Assembly (NCBI GenBank): GCA_013289795.1
Contig: JABCZH010000001.1
Coordinates: 186,001-250,000 of the forward strand
Length of the DNA stretch: 64,000 bases
Direction: 5' to 3'
From: Acidobacteriota bacterium
GTDB taxonomy: Bacteria; Acidobacteriota; Terriglobia; Terriglobales; Acidobacteriaceae
Shown: in pieces, positions 11,162-18,058 of the stretch
How the letters are laid out: each line of letters opens with the position of its first letter
Position numbering within the stretch: the stretch's first letter is position 1
Notes under the pieces: model-generated
Databases searched by the model: none
Seen by the model: the letters and a program-made list of their open reading frames with translations, nothing else
Told to the model about the DNA's origin: nothing
Program-made: the position numbers and the translations under genes

Positions 11162-12013
11162 TTATCCCCTTGCCAGCGGCCGTGTCAGGCAGGTCGGCCC
11201 ACCACTGCCGTTGATGCACAGCTCGGAGCCGGGGAAAGTACGAACGTCGAATCCGGCGGCGCGCAGCTTGGCGTTGGTCTTGGGGTTTTCTTCCAGCGTG
11301 AGCAGACGCTTATTTCCCAGCGAGAGAACGTTGCAGGCCAGCGTGTCTCTTTCCGAATGGTCGATCTCAACAAATTTGTACCCACGGGCCTTAAGTAGTT
11401 CCACTGTCTCTACCGCGAGCCAGGGCAAATCCACTAACGCCGTGTGCTCGTCGAGCAGACTAATCAGCGACATTAAGTGCAGGCACGAGGCTGGCCCGGG
11501 CCCGTAGGGCAGCGGGGCGGTATGCACTTCCACCCCTTTGGGAACGAGCAACGAGCACAACTGCTCGATGCCGGACGGATTAGTGCGGTAGCCGCTTCCA
11601 ATCAGCAGCGTATGTGGATCCAACCATAGGATGTCGCCAGCCTCGCTCGTCCCGGGATCCCGGATTTCTCCCAGCAACCGTGTTCCTAACTTCCGGTAAA
11701 GCTCCGCTTGGCGGCGGGCTTCCGCCCGGCGATTCGGCTTGCCCGGATTCATGACGATGGCGCCATAGTCCGTGGGGAGTGAGGGATCGTGAGCGTAAAC
11801 CGCATCGAGCGAAAGGTCGGATGCCGGCGGAAGCTCTACAACTTCCGCGACTTCCTGCAACTGGCGGCACAACTCGTGATGCTGAGCTTGGGCCACACCG
11901 AAATCCGGACGGCGAAGAAATCCCAATTTCTGCCACTCGCTGGATTGTCCCGGCGTATCCCATCCAGCGGAGCGAGGTGAGCAGACCATCACGCGACGGA
12001 GCGGTCCGACCAT
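11162..12013 (-). CDS. Amidinotransferase-superfamily hydrolase (dimethylarginine dimethylaminohydrolase-like)
   Basis: About 283 residues from ATG 12013; a TTG at 12055 would add 14. The pentein fold is marked by AVYAHDPSLPTDYGAIVMNPGKPNRRAE, ILWLDPHTLLIGSGYRTN, the catalytic-His segment GPASCLHLMSLISLLD, and the C-terminal GGPTCLTRPL that carries the nucleophilic Cys. The active-site residues of DDAH/arginine-deiminase-type enzymes are therefore present. The true substrate (methylarginine, arginine or another guanidine) is not known. It stands alone downstream of nothing obvious and upstream of mfd. Confidence 0.8.
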   Translation of the reverse strand: MVGPLRRVMVCSPRSAGWDTPGQSSEWQKLGFLRRPDFGVAQAQHHELCRQLQEVAEVVELPPASDLSLDAVYAHDPSLPTDYGAIVMNPGKPNRRAEARRQAELYRKLGTRLLGEIRDPGTSEAGDILWLDPHTLLIGSGYRTNPSGIEQLCSLLVPKGVEVHTAPLPYGPGPASCLHLMSLISLLDEHTALVDLPWLAVETVELLKARGYKFVEIDHSERDTLACNVLSLGNKRLLTLEENPKTNAKLRAAGFDVRTFPGSELCINGSGGPTCLTRPLARG

Positions 12014-12088
12014 GGAATTCGCGCTGAAAGTTGCTGGTTTCGTCAAAGTTTGCAACTGTGGCTCCGTTCAGCAATCTAAATGGGCACA

Positions 12089-12373
12089 ATGGCAAAAGCA
12101 ACTTGGGAAGGTACGGTGCTGGCGGAATCAAACCAATGCGTCGAGGTGGAGGGCAATCAGTATTTTCCGCCTGACGCCATCAAGCAGGAGCATTTCAAAC
12201 CCAGCGCGACCCACACGATCTGCCCGTGGAAGGGCACGGCCAGCTATTACGATGTCGAGGTGAGTGGGAAGCGCAACCAGGATGCCGCCTGGTTTTACCC
12301 CGAGCCGAAACCTGCTGCAAAGCAGATCAAGGGCTACGTCGCGTTTTGGAAAGGTGTGAAGGTGGAGAAGTAG
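12089..12373 (+). CDS. DUF427 domain protein
   Basis: A 94-residue protein that is essentially one DUF427 domain: ATWEGTVLAES, YFPPDAIKQEHF, the hallmark TICPWKGTASYYDVEV, and AAWFYPEPKPAAKQIKGYVAFW. The family is small, cytosolic and of unknown function. ATG 12080 and ATG 12089 are both possible; the latter matches the usual MAKATW start. It is a lone plus-strand gene ending two bases before the convergent porin gene. Confidence 0.88.
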   Translation: MAKATWEGTVLAESNQCVEVEGNQYFPPDAIKQEHFKPSATHTICPWKGTASYYDVEVSGKRNQDAAWFYPEPKPAAKQIKGYVAFWKGVKVEK

Positions 12374-12374
12374 C

Positions 12375-13844
12375 TTAGAATTCCATGTGCGCGCGGAAGC
12401 TGGGCACAGTGACTGGACCGCGGTCCTGGTTGTATCCGGGATTATTGATGTGCTGTACCCCCGGAGCGACGTAGATCCCGCGCCACAGGTGAGCTGTGTA
12501 GTAAGCCTCAAAGATATTTTCCCGTCCATAGGTCAAACGACCGTCGCCGAGCAGGAACCCAAGTCCTCCATCGGCCAGGTAGGTTTGATGGTCTTTGACG
12601 ATGCCATTGGAAACGAATGCTATTCCAGCGCGGTCCTGCTTGCGGTGCCACTTTGCGCCGTTTACCCCCAGACCTTCCAGGAAGGTTGAATCAACTTCAG
12701 TGTAGGCAAAGGACTCGGTCCGGCCATTGTCCCAACCCCAGCGTGCGAAGGCCACGAAGTTCGGGGAGAGATTCTGCTCCAAGTTAATTCCGAAACCATA
12801 CTTGAGCGTGATGTGCCAGGGATGGTTGGTGATGTCTGGAACGGGCACCCGACCCGCCTCGAACTGGGCAACCGCCTGCCGGTAAATGCCCATGTTGGCA
12901 TGATTGGCGTATCCGATCAGCCGAATCACACCCGGCTTTTTCGGAAGAATACCGTGTTGCCAGTCGAACTCAAGGTTCTCGGCGTGCGCCTGCCAGGGCT
13001 TCCATACCAAATCGATTCCGTTGGCGACCTTAGGCATCAAGGCCTCGGCAAACTTGAGGCTAAACTTGGGGTCCTCATAATCGGCCACCGCGCCGACGGT
13101 GTAGCCGCGCGTGTCCGCGGCGTAGTCATAGGCCCCGTTGTTGTCCACCGTCCAGTTGAGGAATTGCAGGTGAGTGTCCGAGCCGGCTGAGTTCTGGTCA
13201 AAGAAATCCGGCATGCTGAACTTTCCGACCCGAACCTCAAGGCGGCGCTTTGGAAGCTCACCGAACAATGACAGAGGATTACGCACGTTCTCAATCTTCT
13301 CGTCGCTCAGCGCAAAGACTTTGTGAATCATGGCGCGGGCTACATAGGGTGCCTTGCTCAACAAGGGATTGCGAACAATGTCCAGATTGGTAAAGCCCGC
13401 CAGGCCAAAGCCCGAACTGAGCGCCGCGCCCCCGGCTTCTTCGATGTCCACCAGGATCTCGGTGGAATCGTTCAGGCGCACGCCGGTGTAGAACGTCAAC
13501 ACGCGTGAAGTCGCTTTCTGGTAGTCGGGACCAAGACTGTGCGGGCCGCTGTACTTGGCAAAGAACGACGGGTTGGCCTGAAAGATGAAGTTCGCCTGAC
13601 CGGATAACCAGAAACGGTCGTCCTTTAGGCGCGGGAACATGCTCTCGGGGGCAGGGTCGGCGGAGGGATCGGTCGCCGTATCGGCGGCCTGAGTAGGCGC
13701 AGTCGCGGCCTCCTGAGCAACCGCCGCCTGTTGGGCGATCGCGAACGAGGTCCAGCCAGAGCAGGCAAACGCACACAACGCAAGCGCCAGCCAGCGTCCG
13801 ACAACCGTTCCGAATTGGAGTGTGTCCTTCATTTGTCCGGGCAT
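12375..13844 (-). CDS. OprB-like carbohydrate-selective porin
   Basis: 489 residues. A hydrophobic signal sequence (WLALALCAFACSGWTSFAIAQ) is followed by an Ala/Thr/Pro-rich linker and then a beta-rich barrel sequence ending in MEF, with the terminal phenylalanine required for Bam-dependent insertion. Segments such as RFWLSGQANFIFQ, LTYGRENIFEAYYTAHLWRGIYVAPGVQHINNPGYNQDRGPV match carbohydrate porins of the OprB type. It sits downstream of the Nramp-like unit. A second ATG at 13832 may be the real start. The substrate is unknown. Confidence 0.78.
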   Translation of the reverse strand: MPGQMKDTLQFGTVVGRWLALALCAFACSGWTSFAIAQQAAVAQEAATAPTQAADTATDPSADPAPESMFPRLKDDRFWLSGQANFIFQANPSFFAKYSGPHSLGPDYQKATSRVLTFYTGVRLNDSTEILVDIEEAGGAALSSGFGLAGFTNLDIVRNPLLSKAPYVARAMIHKVFALSDEKIENVRNPLSLFGELPKRRLEVRVGKFSMPDFFDQNSAGSDTHLQFLNWTVDNNGAYDYAADTRGYTVGAVADYEDPKFSLKFAEALMPKVANGIDLVWKPWQAHAENLEFDWQHGILPKKPGVIRLIGYANHANMGIYRQAVAQFEAGRVPVPDITNHPWHITLKYGFGINLEQNLSPNFVAFARWGWDNGRTESFAYTEVDSTFLEGLGVNGAKWHRKQDRAGIAFVSNGIVKDHQTYLADGGLGFLLGDGRLTYGRENIFEAYYTAHLWRGIYVAPGVQHINNPGYNQDRGPVTVPSFRAHMEF

Positions 13845-13875
13845 CGAGCCTACACCAACTCGATTAATACAGTAA

Positions 13876-13917
13876 CGGCAGTCGTGGGGCCCAAGTATCG
13901 AAAGAGCCCCCCTGCCG
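13876..13917 (-). other. Hairpin in the porin leader (possible terminator or attenuator)
   Basis: CGGCAG (13876-13881) pairs with CTGCCG (13912-13917), and inside it GGGGCCC pairs with GAGCCCC with one G-U, around an 11-base loop. On the minus strand it lies between the 67-residue protein and the porin start. No long T tract follows it, so a role as an intrinsic terminator is uncertain. Confidence 0.5.
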
Positions 13918-13933
13918 GGATATAATTAACGTA

Positions 13934-13963
13934 AGTATACACGCGGTAGTAAACTATGGTTAA
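13934..13963 (-). promoter_or_regulatory. Candidate promoter of the porin gene
   Basis: Read on the minus strand, TTAACC and TATACT are separated by 18 bases, a plausible sigma-70-type pair. Transcription would begin near 13927 and include the 13876-13917 hairpin as leader. Confidence 0.4.
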
Positions 13964-13980
13964 CCACGCCAGAGTGTCAT

Positions 13981-14184
13981 TCAGCAATCGTCCGCAAGTT
14001 TCCAGCGCATACGGAGGTGCCGCCTGCCATGTTCGTCGGTGACCACGACCCAGCTCATCTTCAAAGGCAGATTGGGTTCCACAATCTGCTCCGTGAGTTC
14101 CGCGTAGGACTTCTCGAAGCAGACCGAGCGCGCGAGCTGTGACGTCGTCATCGCCAGCGGTGCTAATAAGGTCTTGCATGACAT
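13981..14184 (-). CDS. Small protein of unknown function in the Nramp-like unit
   Basis: 67 residues with no recognised family. The strongest ribosome-binding site seen in the region (AAAGGAGGTAA, 14191-14201) sits 6-7 bases before the ATG, which is good evidence for translation. The C-terminal half, LPLKMSWVVVTDEHGRRHLRMRW, looks like a compact beta-hairpin with basic and aromatic residues. There are two cysteines (C3 and C22) and one at the last position. It is the third gene of a minus-strand unit after the transporter and a small membrane protein. The overlapping longer frame 13850-14830 has no comparable start signal. Confidence 0.65.
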   Translation of the reverse strand: MSCKTLLAPLAMTTSQLARSVCFEKSYAELTEQIVEPNLPLKMSWVVVTDEHGRRHLRMRWKLADDC

Positions 14185-14304
14185 CGTTTCTTACCTCCTT
14201 TCCTTCGGTTTTCATTACCCGCTCCAATTCGATGCCCAGAGTTCCAAGGATCGAACGAGCGAACCATAAAGTCTTCATAAAGAATTCGACCCTCAGTGTC
14301 CGGG

Positions 14305-14541
14305 CTAAACCGGAATTCCAGCGAGATCCAGTACGTGATAAAGCACCAACAACATCATGAGTATCAGATAGCCGCGCAGCGCCATCAGCGACAGTCTCAC
14401 GCTCGGCGTCATTGGCATGGGCCCGAGTGTGGAGGTGTCTACTTTCGTCTCCACAACGTCGTCGAGCGGATGAACCACTGCGAAATGGTTCGCCGGCACT
14501 TCGTCGATGACGGACGGTCTTAGAAAACCTAGTACGCTCAT
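14305..14541 (-). CDS. Small single-pass membrane protein of unknown function
   Basis: 78 residues. The first 50 are hydrophilic with several acidic residues and two histidines (NHFAVVHPLDDVVETKVD), followed by one hydrophobic helix near residues 56-74 (YLILMMLLVLYHVLDLAG). A good Shine-Dalgarno sequence (GCAGGAGGTGC, 14545-14555) precedes the ATG at 14541, and the transporter stop codon is only 18 bases upstream, so the two genes are almost certainly one transcript. It could be an accessory subunit or regulator of the transporter; that is inference from position only. Confidence 0.68.
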   Translation of the reverse strand: MSVLGFLRPSVIDEVPANHFAVVHPLDDVVETKVDTSTLGPMPMTPSVRLSLMALRGYLILMMLLVLYHVLDLAGIPV

Positions 14542-14559
14542 GTTGCACCTCCTGCTTTC

Positions 14560-15888
14560 CTAGATATGGGGGAAGAGATTGGGGGCGACCACTTGGGCCG
14601 CCAGGACTAATGAAAGAGCGAACATGGCGATGATGATCGTCCAGTTCACCCAGTTGTTCCATCGCCGGTTGACGAACCGTTCTCCCAGCACTTCTTTGTC
14701 GTTTAGCAATAGCTGCAGGAAGATGATGGCCGAGGGCAGCATGATGCCGGCCAAAACCTGCACGCCGATGATGATCAACTGCAAGGGCGCGCCGGGAATC
14801 AGGACGATCGCAGCGGCCAGCGCAACGCACACCAGGTACGTCGTGTAAAAATCTTTTGCCTGGCTTACCGGCATTTCCAGGCTATGCGGCCAGCCTTTGA
14901 CTTCCCCATAGGCCCAGGCACTGGAGAGCGAGATGGCCGTCGTCCCCAGCACTGCCGCGTTGATCATCAACAGCAGAATGCCGCTGCGAATTGCTTCCCC
15001 CGAGAACCAGCGAAGATCATTGGCCATTTGCGCGGGATCAAGAAACTGAACTCCATGAACTCGGGCGGCATTTCCCGCGATCATCATGCAGCCAGCCACC
15101 ACAATGGTGAACACTGCCCCCAGAAGAGTATCCAGACGCGACCACTTCAAATCAGCGAAGCGCAAGCGCTTGTCGGCAATGCAACTCTGCTGAAAGAACA
15201 ACTGCCAGGGAGCGATCGTCGTGCCTACAATCGCAATCACCAGGAACACTAGGCTCGCAGTTACTCCGCTTGCAGGCACACTGGGCACAAACGTGTCATG
15301 CAAGACTTCCCCAAAGCCCGGGTGCAGCTTGAACGCAATCACCAGCCAGGCAACATCAAGCAGGCAGAGAAAGACTGTGATCCGCTCCCAGCGCCGATAA
15401 CTGCCGGTCAGCACCATGAACACCAGGCCAACTGCCGCGACGGGAACGCCGACTCTTGGCGTGATATTCATGTGGCTGATTGCGAGAGCAATGGCGGCGA
15501 ACTCCGTGACCAGTGTCAGGAAATTCACCAATTGCAGATCAACCAGGGAGAACAGCCCCCACCACTTTCCGAAACGCTGATAGATCATGGCAGCGTGTCC
15601 TTTGCCGGTCGCGATTCCCAGCCGCACCACCATTTCCTGAATGAAGTAAGTAACCGGCAACAGCAGCAGCAGCAGCCAAAGCAGCTTGGTGCCGTACTGA
15701 GCGCCAGCCTGCACATAGGTTGAGACTGCACCCGCGTCGTTGTCCGCTTCCATGACAATCAGGCCCGGGCCAAATACCATCAGGAAAGTGAGCACGCTGT
15801 ACAGCCACTTGCTGCGTACCACGCGGCCACGAACCGGCGGCGTGGCGGCAACACCTGCGGTTGAAATCGAAAGCACCTCCTGCTGCAT
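14560..15888 (-). CDS. Divergent Nramp-family metal ion transporter
   Basis: 442 residues with 11 or so hydrophobic helices. The Nramp fold is shown by FGPGLIVMEAD in helix 1, QAGAQYGTKLLW, the RLGIATGKGHA segment, and the helix 6 segment TTIAPWQLFFQQ. The helix 1 DPGN motif is DAGA at residues 51-54: the metal-binding Asp stays but Asn is Ala. In helix 6 the A-x-x-M-P-H motif is A-P-W: the selectivity Met is Ala and His is Trp. In known Nramp proteins that Met favours transition metals, and its loss is known in Mg2+-carrying relatives (NRMT). The ATG at 15888 has an AAGGAGAAAAACC site. The longer frame to 16017 translates a palindromic leader and is rejected. Confidence 0.85.
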   Translation of the reverse strand: MQQEVLSISTAGVAATPPVRGRVVRSKWLYSVLTFLMVFGPGLIVMEADNDAGAVSTYVQAGAQYGTKLLWLLLLLLPVTYFIQEMVVRLGIATGKGHAAMIYQRFGKWWGLFSLVDLQLVNFLTLVTEFAAIALAISHMNITPRVGVPVAAVGLVFMVLTGSYRRWERITVFLCLLDVAWLVIAFKLHPGFGEVLHDTFVPSVPASGVTASLVFLVIAIVGTTIAPWQLFFQQSCIADKRLRFADLKWSRLDTLLGAVFTIVVAGCMMIAGNAARVHGVQFLDPAQMANDLRWFSGEAIRSGILLLMINAAVLGTTAISLSSAWAYGEVKGWPHSLEMPVSQAKDFYTTYLVCVALAAAIVLIPGAPLQLIIIGVQVLAGIMLPSAIIFLQLLLNDKEVLGERFVNRRWNNWVNWTIIIAMFALSLVLAAQVVAPNLFPHI

Positions 15889-15913
15889 GGTTTTTCTCCT
15901 TTTCCCAAGGGTT

Positions 15914-16001
15914 GCCGGGGCACAGCTCAGCAGCGCACGCTCGCGGTTTGTGCCGATAAAGGCAAAGCGAGCGTGACGCCGCTGGGTCGAACGGCCCCGG
16001 C
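15914..16001. repeat. 88-bp imperfect palindrome in the transporter leader
   Basis: Two 41-base arms (15914-15954 and 15961-16001) flank the loop GATAAA. The ends pair as GCCGGGGC with GCCCCGGC, eight of eight. After an unpaired 9-by-9 internal loop, CAGCGC-CACGCTCGC pairs with its complement, including nine uninterrupted pairs CACGCTCGC/GCGAGCGTG, then TTT and GCC pair next to the loop. In the minus-strand mRNA the structure ends 25 bases before the transporter start codon. It could be a regulatory RNA or a mobile palindromic element. Confidence 0.7.
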
Positions 16002-16147
16002 GTAAACGTGTCTTCAATTGGTTTGCGGAGTGGAAGCAGCAGAGGTGACGATAGGCGGGAAATCGGTCTACCGGTTCAGTTCTATTGCTTCTACACCGGA
16101 CAGCCAGCCGTACTCGGAGGTCTGTCGTTACCTTGTTTCATACGCTC

Positions 16148-16177
16148 TTGACTGCTTGTAGCATACCCCCCTATAGT
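16148..16177 (+). promoter_or_regulatory. Sigma-70-type promoter of the metal-sensor gene
   Basis: TTGACT at 16148-16153 and TATAGT at 16172-16177 are separated by 18 bases. The predicted start of transcription, near 16184, is only about nine bases before the GTG start codon at 16193, so the mRNA would have almost no leader. Confidence 0.65.
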
Positions 16178-16179
16178 AT
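16163..16179. promoter_or_regulatory. CsoR/RcnR/FrmR-type operator
   Basis: ATACCCCCCTATAGTAT has the arrangement typical of this repressor family: a run of C/G flanked by an AT-rich inverted repeat, ATAC...GTAT. It overlaps the spacer and -10 box of the regulator promoter and faces the transporter leader on the other side, so one site could control both directions. Confidence 0.7.
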
Positions 16180-16192
16180 TGTCAAGAAAAAA

Positions 16193-16471
16193 GTGGCGCA
16201 CACCATACGAGAAAAAGAAAAGCTGGTTCTGCGCATCCGTCGGATTCGCGGCCAGATCGAGGCGCTGGAGCGCGCCCTTACTGACGAAATCGAATGCTCA
16301 GACGTCTTGCAGCTAATTACCGCAGCGCGAGGAGCGCTTAATGGGTTGATGGCTGAACTAGTCGAGGACCATGTCCGCTTTCATGTCCTGGACCCGAAAC
16401 AAAAGCCGACCTCTGAACAGGCCTTGGCCGCGGATGAACTGGTAGACATCATTCGTTCCTACTTGAAGTGA
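16193..16471 (+). CDS. Metal-sensing repressor of the CsoR/RcnR/FrmR (DUF156) family
   Basis: 92 residues from GTG 16193, all helical. The core RIRRIRGQIEALERAL, ECSDVLQLITAARGALNGLMAELVEDHV and the end IIRSYLK are closest in style to FrmR, but the ligand positions are His3, Cys35, His60 and His64, the set of nickel/cobalt-sensing RcnR, with Glu34 beside the cysteine. These repressors bind G-tract DNA as tetramers and release it on binding metal or aldehyde. An upstream ATG at 16085 would translate through the promoter and operator, so it is rejected. It is divergent from the Nramp-like transporter and probably controls it and itself. Confidence 0.85.
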   Translation: MAHTIREKEKLVLRIRRIRGQIEALERALTDEIECSDVLQLITAARGALNGLMAELVEDHVRFHVLDPKQKPTSEQALAADELVDIIRSYLK

Positions 16472-16523
16472 TTCGCCCGTTGGGATTTGAGCGCGGCGGG
16501 GTTGAAAGCGAAGATTCGGCCCC

Positions 16524-16563
16524 AAAAAAATCAGGACGGCTCGGAGCCCCCCGAAGCCGTCCT
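16524..16563 (-). terminator. Minus-strand intrinsic terminator with no annotated upstream gene
   Basis: AGGACGGC (16533-16540) pairs with GCCGTCCT (16556-16563), and TCGG pairs with CCGA inside it, around a short AGCCCC loop. On the minus strand the hairpin is followed by seven T residues (A tract at 16524-16530). That is a textbook intrinsic terminator for leftward transcription. The plus side has no T run. The only leftward gene to the right is the polysaccharide deacetylase, beyond the oppositely oriented hemL. Confidence 0.75.
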
Positions 16564-16636
16564 TAAGACCCTCCCGGTTAGAAGGGCGTGTAATGAGATA
16601 AAGCCTACTGGCCACGTGTTTCAGCACTGTTGCTGA
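16524..16636 (-). ncRNA. Candidate small structured RNA
   Basis: The minus strand from 16636 to 16524 would fold into three hairpins: TCAGCA/TGCTGA with a four-base loop, CCCT/AGGG, and the terminator at 16524-16563. It contains no convincing open frame. A possible -10 box (TACAAT) overlaps the first hairpin at 16637-16642 but no good -35 box is visible. Read-through from the deacetylase gene is the alternative explanation. Confidence 0.3.
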
Positions 16637-16756
16637 ATTGTAAAATTCCGGTGAATTCCGTTACCTGTTTGACACTGGCTGGTTCTTGCCAAGATGCAGT
16701 CGCCCGAGCGTTTAGCGACTGTTAACATGTTTGCCAACCATTCCCTAAGGAGACTC

Positions 16757-18058
16757 ATGGGCCGAAAAATGGAGATTTCTCGTGCGCTGCAAAAACGCGC
16801 CGACAAAATGATTCCTGGCGGTGTCAATTCACCGGTACGCGCTTTTTGCGCGGTCGGCGGAGATGCCCCCTTCATCCTGCACGGTGAAGGCTCGCGGCTG
16901 TTTGACGCTGACGGCAACGGATACATCGACTACGTGGGTTCCTGGGGTCCGCTAATTCTCGGGCATTCCGCGCCTGCAGTTGTAGAGGCGGTCATAGCCG
17001 CGGCCCGCAATGGCACCAGCTTTGGCGCCTCGACACCCAGCGAAGCCGATCTGGCGGAAGTTGTGATCTCAGCCTTTCCCCACATTGAAAAAGTGCGATT
17101 CGTCAATTCCGGCACCGAGGCCACCATGTCTGCCATTCGCCTGGCCCGGGCCTACACCAAGCGCAAGTATGTGATTAAGTTTGAAGGCTGCTATCACGGA
17201 CACGCCGACGCCCTGCTGGTGAAAGCCGGATCGGGCGTGGCCACGCTCGGGATTCCAGGCTCGGCGGGGGTTCCGGAGGAGTTTGCACAATTCACGCTGG
17301 CACTGCCTTTCGGCGACCTGCATCCGCTGGAGGAAGCATTCAAGAAATTCAAACACCAGATTGCCTGCGTGATTGTAGAACCCATAGTTGGCAACATGGG
17401 TTGCGTGCCGGCAACGGGCGAGTACCTGGCGGCCTTGCGTTTGATGACGCACCAGGAAAAAACCGTCCTGATTTTCGATGAGGTTATGACCGGATTCCGC
17501 GTGGCTCTTGGAGGCGCCCAGGAACTTTACGGCATCCAGCCTGACCTGACCACGCTGGGCAAGATCATCGGGGGAGGACTTCCGGTCGGAGCCTACGGAG
17601 GCCCTTCGGACATCATGGATCTTGTAGCGCCCCTCGGGCCGATGTACCAGGCTGGAACCCTGTCAGGTAATCCTTTGACCATGGCTGCCGGCCTGGCAAC
17701 CTTGCGCCATTTGCGCGAACACAAGCAGGAGATCTATCCACGCCTGGAGAAGCTGAGCGGGGAACTGGTGGCCGGAGTTGCAGCCGCGGCGACCGACGCT
17801 GGCGTGCCCATCTGCCACAACCGTGTGGGATCGATGTTCACCTGGTTCTTCCAGCCCGGCCCGGTGACCAATTGGACTTCCGTGACGAAATCCGACACCA
17901 AGGCCTTTGCCCGCTTTTTCCGCTCCATGCTGGAGAGCGGGGTGTACCTGCCACCTTCGCAATTCGAAGCGGCCTTCTTGAGCGCAGCGCATACTGAGGA
18001 AGACGTCCAGAAGACGATCGCGGCAGCGAAGCAGGCGTTTGCACCGGCGCACGCGTAG
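16757..18058 (+). CDS. hemL: Glutamate-1-semialdehyde 2,1-aminomutase
   Basis: 433 residues from ATG 16757, which has AAGGAGA at 16747-16753; the earlier in-frame ATG at 16694 lacks one. PLP-dependent class III aminotransferase motifs are present: [11 protein letters not shown], the [16 protein letters not shown] segment, [12 protein letters not shown], the Asp of [11 protein letters not shown], and the Schiff-base lysine in [17 protein letters not shown]. It converts glutamate-1-semialdehyde to 5-aminolevulinate in the C5 haem pathway. A TTGACA box at 16669 may belong to its promoter, but no clear -10 box follows. Confidence 0.97.

Follow-up and report, generated by a model that had tools for sequence, protein, structure and literature searches.

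The stretch of DNA considered here, which we call the window, comprises 64,000 nucleotides (nt) of an Acidobacteriota bacterium (GenBank assembly GCA_013289795.1, contig JABCZH010000001.1, positions 186,001 to 250,000) and holds a gene cluster in which an Nramp-related transporter gene faces a divergently oriented repressor gene. An earlier note, made from the sequence alone, had described a four-gene metal-homeostasis unit consisting of the minus-strand Nramp-related gene, two small genes behind it and a plus-strand gene of the CsoR/RcnR/FrmR family (the sensor). The open reading frames (ORFs) of transporter, small1, small2 and sensor are confirmed at the positions given below; the unit, however, appears longer than the four genes, reaching an OprB-family porin gene at 12375-13844 and including a short leader ORF, both missing from that note and found in this analysis. 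The cluster and the porin gene probably form one unit, from 12375 to 16471, with the following features.

12375..13844, minus strand: OprB-family porin, 489 amino acids, probable outer-membrane part of the unit (Pfam PF04966)
13981..14184, minus strand: small2, 67 amino acids, C-terminal motif MSWVVVTDxxGxRxLxxxW (homologue in locus L147; W...W motif)
14305..14541, minus strand: small1, 78 amino acids, putative separately encoded last transmembrane helix (profile match to the C-terminus of the fused clade described below)
14560..15888, minus strand: NRMT-related Nramp transporter, 442 amino acids, ATG start at 15888, motif DAGA / TTIAPW (Pfam, solved-chain match, tree)
16025..16100, minus strand: predicted leader hairpin between the 3' end of the short ORF and a segment ~50 nt downstream, with an inner CGGTAG..CTATCG stem (single-sequence folds; alignment fold)
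16091..16141, minus strand: leader peptide ORF, MKQGNDRPPSTAGCPV (same place and acidic/Pro-Pro motif in relatives)
16155..16185, minus strand: putative transporter-directed promoter, TTGACA - 19 bp - TACAAG, with the operator within its spacer (sequence reading)
16148..16177, plus strand: putative sensor-directed promoter, TTGACT - 18 bp - TATAGT (promoter scan)
16163..16179, no strand assigned: type I G-tract operator, ATACCCCCCTATAGTAT (pattern in 19 of 56 leaders)
16193..16471, plus strand: CsoR/RcnR/FrmR-family repressor, 92 amino acids, GTG start, H3-C35-H60-H64 (Pfam, NCBIfam, solved relatives)

The transporter matches the Pfam Nramp family at 225 bits. Its helix 1 reads DAGA instead of DPGN and its helix 6 TTIAPWQ, so that the helix 1 Asp is kept while the Asn of DPGN and the Met and His of helix 6 are lost, as the earlier note had read. 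The closest solved chain is EleNRMT (7qia, 193 bits), with MntH, an Mn/Fe Nramp, next at 74 bits, and the AlphaFold2 model of a fused homologue likewise finds EleNRMT at Foldseek rank 1 (E 4.7e-17, 405 columns); the protein is thus closer to EleNRMT than to the Mn/Fe Nramps. EleNRMT is an uncoupled importer that transports Mg2+ and Mn2+ without H+ (PMC8806188). In a tree of 117 rows the window copy falls within a 53-row clade (Shimodaira-Hasegawa-like approximate likelihood-ratio test, SH-aLRT, 99), the split clade, whose sister is a clade of 35 longer, fused proteins (SH-aLRT 99; both clades together 89). The tree was built by a quick method and rooted at the midpoint, and long branches leave the position of EleNRMT unsure; it also labels L130 as a sensor locus, yet just a sensor fragment was found there. 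All 53 split-clade rows carry the TxxA signature of helix 6, and helix 1 is DAGA in 52 of them and DAGS in one. The suggestion of the earlier note that this is a divergent Nramp of the Mg-transporter kind is supported; by kinship the transporter would work like NRMT, and we do not claim strict membership. Its named relatives are mostly Acidobacteriota. Two more Nramp-like genes occur in the same genome, one just past the window end (G000:C1:250810-252033), the other (G000:C3:150515-151726, L001) adjoining an MgtE_N-type ORF.

The neighbourhood recurs in relatives, in support of the earlier note. Small1 stands directly behind the transporter gene in 45 of 48 split-clade loci (a set that includes three duplicates, L005, L007 and L008) and was not found behind it in the other three, L057, L067 and L072. 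Most rows of the fused sister clade, whose members come from Actinomycetota, Burkholderiaceae, Chromobacteriaceae, Alicyclobacillaceae and other groups, are extended at the C-terminus by some 90-110 residues. At an independent E-value (i-E) < 1e-3, 21 of the 35 fused proteins match the small1 profile at their extreme C-terminus, and 13 further ones do so more weakly at the same place; among the matches listed for these 35 rows there is none for L083, and the best i-E among the matches listed for 27 other Nramps is 0.033. In the AlphaFold2 model of the fused homologue L100 (Paraburkholderia; predicted local distance difference test score, pLDDT, 88.3), the small1-like part is a single helix, residues 523-552. 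Since the small1 profile matches the fused C-terminus, the two forms arose by division of a single gene or by fusion of two, an argument that the two products are physical partners. By homology, then, small1 is the detached last helix of the transporter. Of the two small proteins that the earlier note had called unknown, small2 still has no family, whereas small1 is no longer an unrelated unknown protein, a reading that its homology to the fused-clade C-terminus rules out. L049 and L070 were rejected as small1 fusions, because the ORF in each lies in a different reading frame and its start codon is far away; genuine fusions occur in the 45%-identity clade. No detached helix of any Nramp was found in the literature searched, which was chiefly open-access and partial in coverage. 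A natural split that separates the last Nramp helix makes the role of that helix directly testable.

What does the two-polypeptide transporter carry? We propose, with confidence a little above even, that the locus is an uptake unit for Mg2+, perhaps also for Mn2+, composed of the two-polypeptide transporter, the porin, the repressor and an Mg2+-sensing leader peptide. Ahead of the same operon, the M-box Mg2+ riboswitch scores above its gathering threshold in 14 of 56 distinct loci; this set was obtained by removing 20 duplicate or partial loci, it includes L127, which was outside the M-box scan, and L039, which covers just 300 nt upstream, and its loci are mutually related. The M-box turns genes off at high Mg2+ (PMC12810186), and Shin et al. 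proposed association with it as a mark of the Mg-type NrmT (PMC4072509). In the window genome (assembly 4.67 Mb, 99.9% complete) no CorA or MgtE domain was found by a search that was positive for CorA in 14 and for MgtE in nine of 14 control genomes, nor did any Mg P-type ATPase score above cut-off. If it has neither CorA nor MgtE, the cell may rely on leader-controlled Mg2+ uptake by this operon. No remnant M-box was found in the window leader, and an Rfam hit to mir-8791 at 15917-15998 on the minus strand (22.4 of 85 bits) was dismissed as a chance match.

The earlier note had favored export or detoxification, with a repressor that opens on Ni/Co or aldehyde and a transporter that removes the metal. 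The RcnR-type His3, Cys35, His60 and His64 of the sensor and its type I operator would suit such a function. However, the nearest solved relative is an uncoupled importer (PMC8806188), and the M-boxes of relatives belong to a class that switches genes off at high Mg2+ (PMC12810186). Because EleNRMT is the nearest solved chain, the M-box is present in 14 of the 56 loci, and CorA and MgtE were not found, Mg2+ import fits better, and we consider detoxification very improbable. A different case can be made for a transporter of Mn2+ or of divalent ions in general, which the repressor would tune to the transition-metal status of the cell, Mg2+ being incidental. EleNRMT carries Mn2+ besides Mg2+ (PMC8806188), the acidobacterial NrmT in the tests of Shin et al. 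complemented an Mn transport defect and relieved Mg starvation only with Mg in the low millimolar range (PMC4072509), and the sensor here has a transition-metal ligand set. Yet the protein tested, from A. capsulatum, adjoins an MgtE_N gene, and in the present genome that neighbourhood belongs to another Nramp, L001; the M-boxes ahead of the present clade and the failure to find CorA and MgtE also speak for Mg2+. We therefore regard a primarily Mn2+ or general divalent importer as somewhat unlikely.

Between promoter and transporter gene lies the short ORF, counterparts of which in relatives encode MAKESDQPPASGGLPV (L054), MSELKREDQPPSSGGFPV (L034), MSKESAQEPPSTRRSFLCCDERSDNLL (L043) and MSDGSVSILREQQTDAESAEPPSPMPA (L055). 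An ORF with the motif [DE].?PPS occurs in 38 of the 56 leaders, against a mean of 0.65 (max 3) in 40 shuffles; like the operator motif, this pattern was chosen after viewing the first leaders. In the first set it is present in 29/42 leaders and 0/35 fused-clade leaders, shuffles giving a mean of 0.53 (max 3; 60 shuffles), and the looser [DE].?PP in 32/42 and 6/35, respectively, shuffles giving 4.55 (max 10). In the second set, 11 of 14 non-duplicate loci have [DE].?PP (L125 and L126 with identical peptides), and the remaining three show, by eye, QPP (L115 and L121) or KPAG (L118). The leaders with the strict motif include 17 of the 19 operator leaders and nine of the 14 M-box loci. No leader peptide for any Nramp turned up in the literature searched, with the same chiefly open-access and partial coverage.

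In 32 aligned rows (two of which the pattern picked up from other ORFs of L006) the core is E/Q-P-P-S. Its Glu codons are divided 11:11 between GAA and GAG, the second Pro appears as all four codons, and Ser as AGT and TCT; among nine Granulicella-type leaders, pairwise differences at codon positions 1/2/3 number 188/201/354. Because third positions vary most and the Glu and Pro codons vary, the ORF reads as translated, a codon pattern that we take as the mark of a peptide. One might instead suppose that the conserved feature is an RNA element, CCUCC(N)AGU pairing with a GGAGG-type sequence and hiding the ribosome-binding site. The first Pro codon is indeed CCT in 31 of the 32 rows and AGT is preferred for Ser (26/32), and CCTCC pairs with a nearby GGAGG in some folds, for example those of L036 and L038. 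Against such an element speak the free variation in the third positions of the second Pro and Glu codons, a Ser also encoded by TCT, the third-position excess (seen in one leader group), and an in-frame ATG at varying distance, preceded by the ribosome-site-like AGAAAGG in L035, L036, L054 and L074. An RNA element in place of a peptide thus seems unlikely to us, and the near-invariant CCT may reflect an RNA role in addition to the translated peptide. The leaders of L064, L065, L068 and L070 (Acetobacteraceae and related) contain, by eye, a related short ORF starting with MNPR, MKRR or MKPR, with the acidic-PPS motif only in L070.

In relatives, the sequence downstream of the short ORF is predicted to form alternative stems. 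For ten Granulicella-type leaders, pairing is predicted between segment A, at the 3' side of the short ORF, and a downstream segment (B), with 94.0% of cells paired; slid versions of the pairing reach at most 58.8%, and 0/500 shuffles reached its covariation score. The number of A:B pairs with two-sided change (two) was reached in 87/500 shuffles, and we regard the covariation as modest. In the nine leaders of the window group, the alignment fold predicts an A:B stem of 12 pairs, five of them with two-sided changes, which holds an inner CGATAG..CTATCG stem. In the Granulicella-type leaders, segment B is also predicted to pair with a later segment, C (89.9% of cells), and A:B and B:C are mutually exclusive. 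This arrangement resembles the anatomy of MgtL/MgtQ-type attenuators; the direction and mechanism of control are our inference. In this second layer of control, beside the repressor, the leader peptide would sense Mg2+ in the ribosome. In low Mg2+, the acidic/Pro-Pro stretch would abort or stall translation, the 3' end of the short ORF would pair with B, and the operon would be read; in ample Mg2+, the ribosome would reach the stop codon, B would pair with C, and expression would be cut. In L035, L049 and L118, a terminator-like hairpin followed by T's is seen by eye between M-box and transporter, in L035 and L118 ahead of the short ORF; these leaders may hold two Mg2+-type attenuators in tandem.

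The sensor is the sole PF02583 match in the window genome (77.2 bits, cut-off 22.8), with Cys35 and His60 present, and with the GTG start at 16193 it has the complete RcnR ligand set His3-Cys35-His60-His64 noted earlier. Its solved relatives are FrmR 5lbm and 5lcy. It scores below the NCBIfam equivalog thresholds of both RcnR (75.1 of 138 bits) and FrmR (97.2 of 133 bits), and has Ala2 instead of Pro2; several sister sensors are without His3 (e.g., L043, L045 of Terriglobus roseus, L048), residues 2-3 being variable. Pro2 is required for formaldehyde sensing, and addition of His64 alone to Salmonella FrmR gave Co and Zn sensing (PMC4528141, PMC5146963).

The G-tract operator that the earlier note had seen between the genes is found at 16163-16179, and its pattern, drawn from the first sites seen, is enriched, occurring in 19 of the 56 leaders, whereas 100 dinucleotide shuffles gave 0.12 on average (max 2). 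It lies between the transporter-side boxes TTGACA (16180-16185) and TACAAG (16155-16160), both on the minus strand, and also overlaps the sensor-side TTGACT/TATAGT, a position suited to the control of both genes. The standard promoter scan allows spacers of 16-18 bp and hence lists the sensor-side pair only. A TTG box facing the transporter stands at the same place in 15 of the 19 operator leaders (TTGAC in nine), and in 12 of these 15, the window included, a -10-like hexamer that matches at 4 or 5 of 6 positions follows at 19 bp. Most transporter-side promoters thus contain G-tract-filled spacers of 19-20 bp (16161-16179 in the window), above the usual 16-18; an activating, MerR-like role of the bound protein is conceivable.

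Of the 15 loci that have a divergent sensor next to the transporter, 13 carry the operator, as do six leaders without an intact adjacent sensor (L046, L053, L056, L057, L067 and L130). In L046 and L130, short N-terminal sensor matches, which lie no more than 1.6 kb upstream of the transporter, point to decay of the sensor gene while the operator was kept; the other four suggest control in trans. Might the sensor simply control itself and adjoin the transporter by chance? The operator overlaps the sensor-directed promoter too, the sensor of L006 sits on the other side of the transporter, and four operator leaders are without a transporter-facing -35 box. Retention of the operator in the six leaders just mentioned, and the equally placed, transporter-facing TTG box in 15 of 19, nevertheless render pure self-control rather improbable. 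We suggest instead that, bound to the G-tract of the promoter region common to the two genes, the repressor shuts off the transporter and itself, and that a ligand, presumably of the Co/Ni/Zn or aldehyde class, would release it.

Some relatives have an M-box in place of the repressor. Because the 19 operator leaders include none of the 14 M-box loci of the 56-locus set, M-box and operator seem to replace each other; the chance of zero overlap is 0.001, a figure that does not take kinship into account. L073 has an M-box together with a sensor further upstream. The operator-bearing copies of the window, L054 and L115 have an M-box copy, L034, as their nearest in the tree; most simply, one regulator would have taken the place of the other at one locus. 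In the same operon, then, a protein repressor and a riboswitch seem interchangeable. L054 and L034 also have a neighbouring gene cluster, c10, in common with the window, presumably hemL-like.

Both small genes look real, because small1 recurs in 45/48 loci and small2 has a homologue in L147. This is the one clear small2 homologue among the loci searched (same place, 46% identical, E 1e-11), and L147 has the complete set of sensor, transporter, small1, small2 and porin. For small2 itself, neither Pfam nor NCBIfam gives a family above cut-off. Small ORFs with two Trp residues lie between short leader ORF and transporter in L006, L043-L048, L051-L053, L056-L058, L066 and L072, most of them with a W-x-x-T-G-x-P-x-x-P-L-x-x-x-W-like motif; the two that were scanned had no Pfam family, and window small2 has only the W...W part in common with them. 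Since the profile of this W...W family (A5) found no match in the window genome at E 0.01, the link of small2 to it rests on a short motif seen by eye. A W...W small ORF also precedes an OprB porin gene in G017 and G012 (L145 4397-3120, L146 5451-6728); these porins are 49-54% identical to that of the window, and the sequence taken around each gave no match to the transporter.

The porin belongs to the OprB family (PF04966, 90.7 bits, cut-off 22.9). An OprB homologue is present in 11 of 38 split-clade loci that extend at least 2 kb downstream, the window excluded, against 1 of 32 fused-clade loci. The porin gene may have its own promoter, given the promoter-like sites ahead of it (13963-13934 and 13980-13953, minus strand). 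In L073 the order is M-box, porin, transporter, small1, and an M-box ahead of the porin supports an outer-membrane role in Mg2+ uptake; the OprB-type porin would provide the outer-membrane step, a role that the gene order suggests. A gene of cluster c9, MgtC-like to judge from its sequence, is near the transporter in L046, L048, L062, L096 and L098, in both clades.

Taken together, these features would describe an NRMT-like Nramp uniporter that receives its last helix from the next gene, small1, as a two-polypeptide transporter. More broadly, we see somewhat less than an even chance that a two-polypeptide Nramp, a porin and a new acidic-PPS family of Mg2+ leader peptides, in tandem with an M-box or a CsoR-family repressor, form one combined system and that this system exists in acidobacteria and scattered other phyla. 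Several observations weigh against the assignment to Mg2+ uptake or against parts of it. The published NRMT helix 1 motif is DxxG (PMC8806188), and the strict signature, DxxG with TxxA/T, is absent here, helix 1 being DxxA; the acidobacterial NrmT of Shin et al. acted as an Mn transporter (PMC4072509). The window region 12000-17000 has no match to RF00380 at E up to 5, and a scan with stricter filters found no M-box in any of 41 genomes (that of the window, with 51 of 76 candidates scored, and 40 relatives). The transporter clade is patchy, with matches at E up to 1e-120 in 23 of 399 genomes of the class, and the porin was not found in most relatives. In the leader, 10/42 first-set leaders are without a [DE].?PP ORF and 6/35 fused-clade leaders have one; the window short ORF has no clear Shine-Dalgarno sequence and begins ~7 nt after a start site inferred by eye; B:C shows little variation and no excess covariation, and segment C is not clear in the window leader. 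As to the repressor, L069 and L123 are sensor loci without the operator, no transporter-facing -35 box is visible in the operator leaders L053, L056, L057 and L067, and an importer is oddly matched with a repressor that a toxic metal would release. One conjecture for the last point is that excess Co/Ni/Zn competes with Mg2+, and derepression restores Mg2+.

If the proposal is true, the leaders would represent another Mg2+ leader-peptide family, with no sequence relation shown to the enterobacterial ones, and would test the idea that ribosomes report Mg2+ via acidic/proline nascent chains. In MgtQ, MgtL and CorL, inefficient translation of a small ORF alters the downstream fold, and in MgtQ and MgtL the inefficiency is caused by acidic or proline codons (PMC8092293, PMC11282234, PMC11552253). 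The leaders described here are like them in placing a short ORF in the leader or intergenic region of a candidate Mg2+ transporter, with acidic/proline residues as in MgtL and MgtQ, and, in relatives of the window copy, predicted alternative stems downstream. They differ in the transporter family, in the lack of any demonstrated sequence relation, and in the PP(S) core of peptides encoded behind an M-box or a G-tract operator. The mycobacterial M-box-uORF2-pe20 leader also has an M-box followed by a conserved small ORF in an Mg2+-related operon, but that peptide is reported as specific to mycobacteria, has one conserved proline and serves a PE/PPE operon (PMC12810186). The sensor has the family, the RcnR ligand positions and the type I G-tract operator in common with RcnR and FrmR (PMC5146963, PMC4528141), and differs in falling under both NCBIfam equivalog cut-offs, in Ala2 instead of Pro2, in the variable positions 2-3 of its sisters, and in having a probable importer as its target. 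The transporter, lastly, resembles NrmT and EleNRMT in the TTIA of helix 6 with loss of Met and His (PMC4072509, PMC8806188), in being nearest to EleNRMT in sequence and modelled fold, and in the M-box ahead of 14/56 relatives; it differs from them in a helix 1 motif ending in Ala (DAGA), in an MgtE_N-type neighbour that occurs within its clade only in L068, in the porin and repressor added to the unit, and in a last helix that comes from a separate gene.

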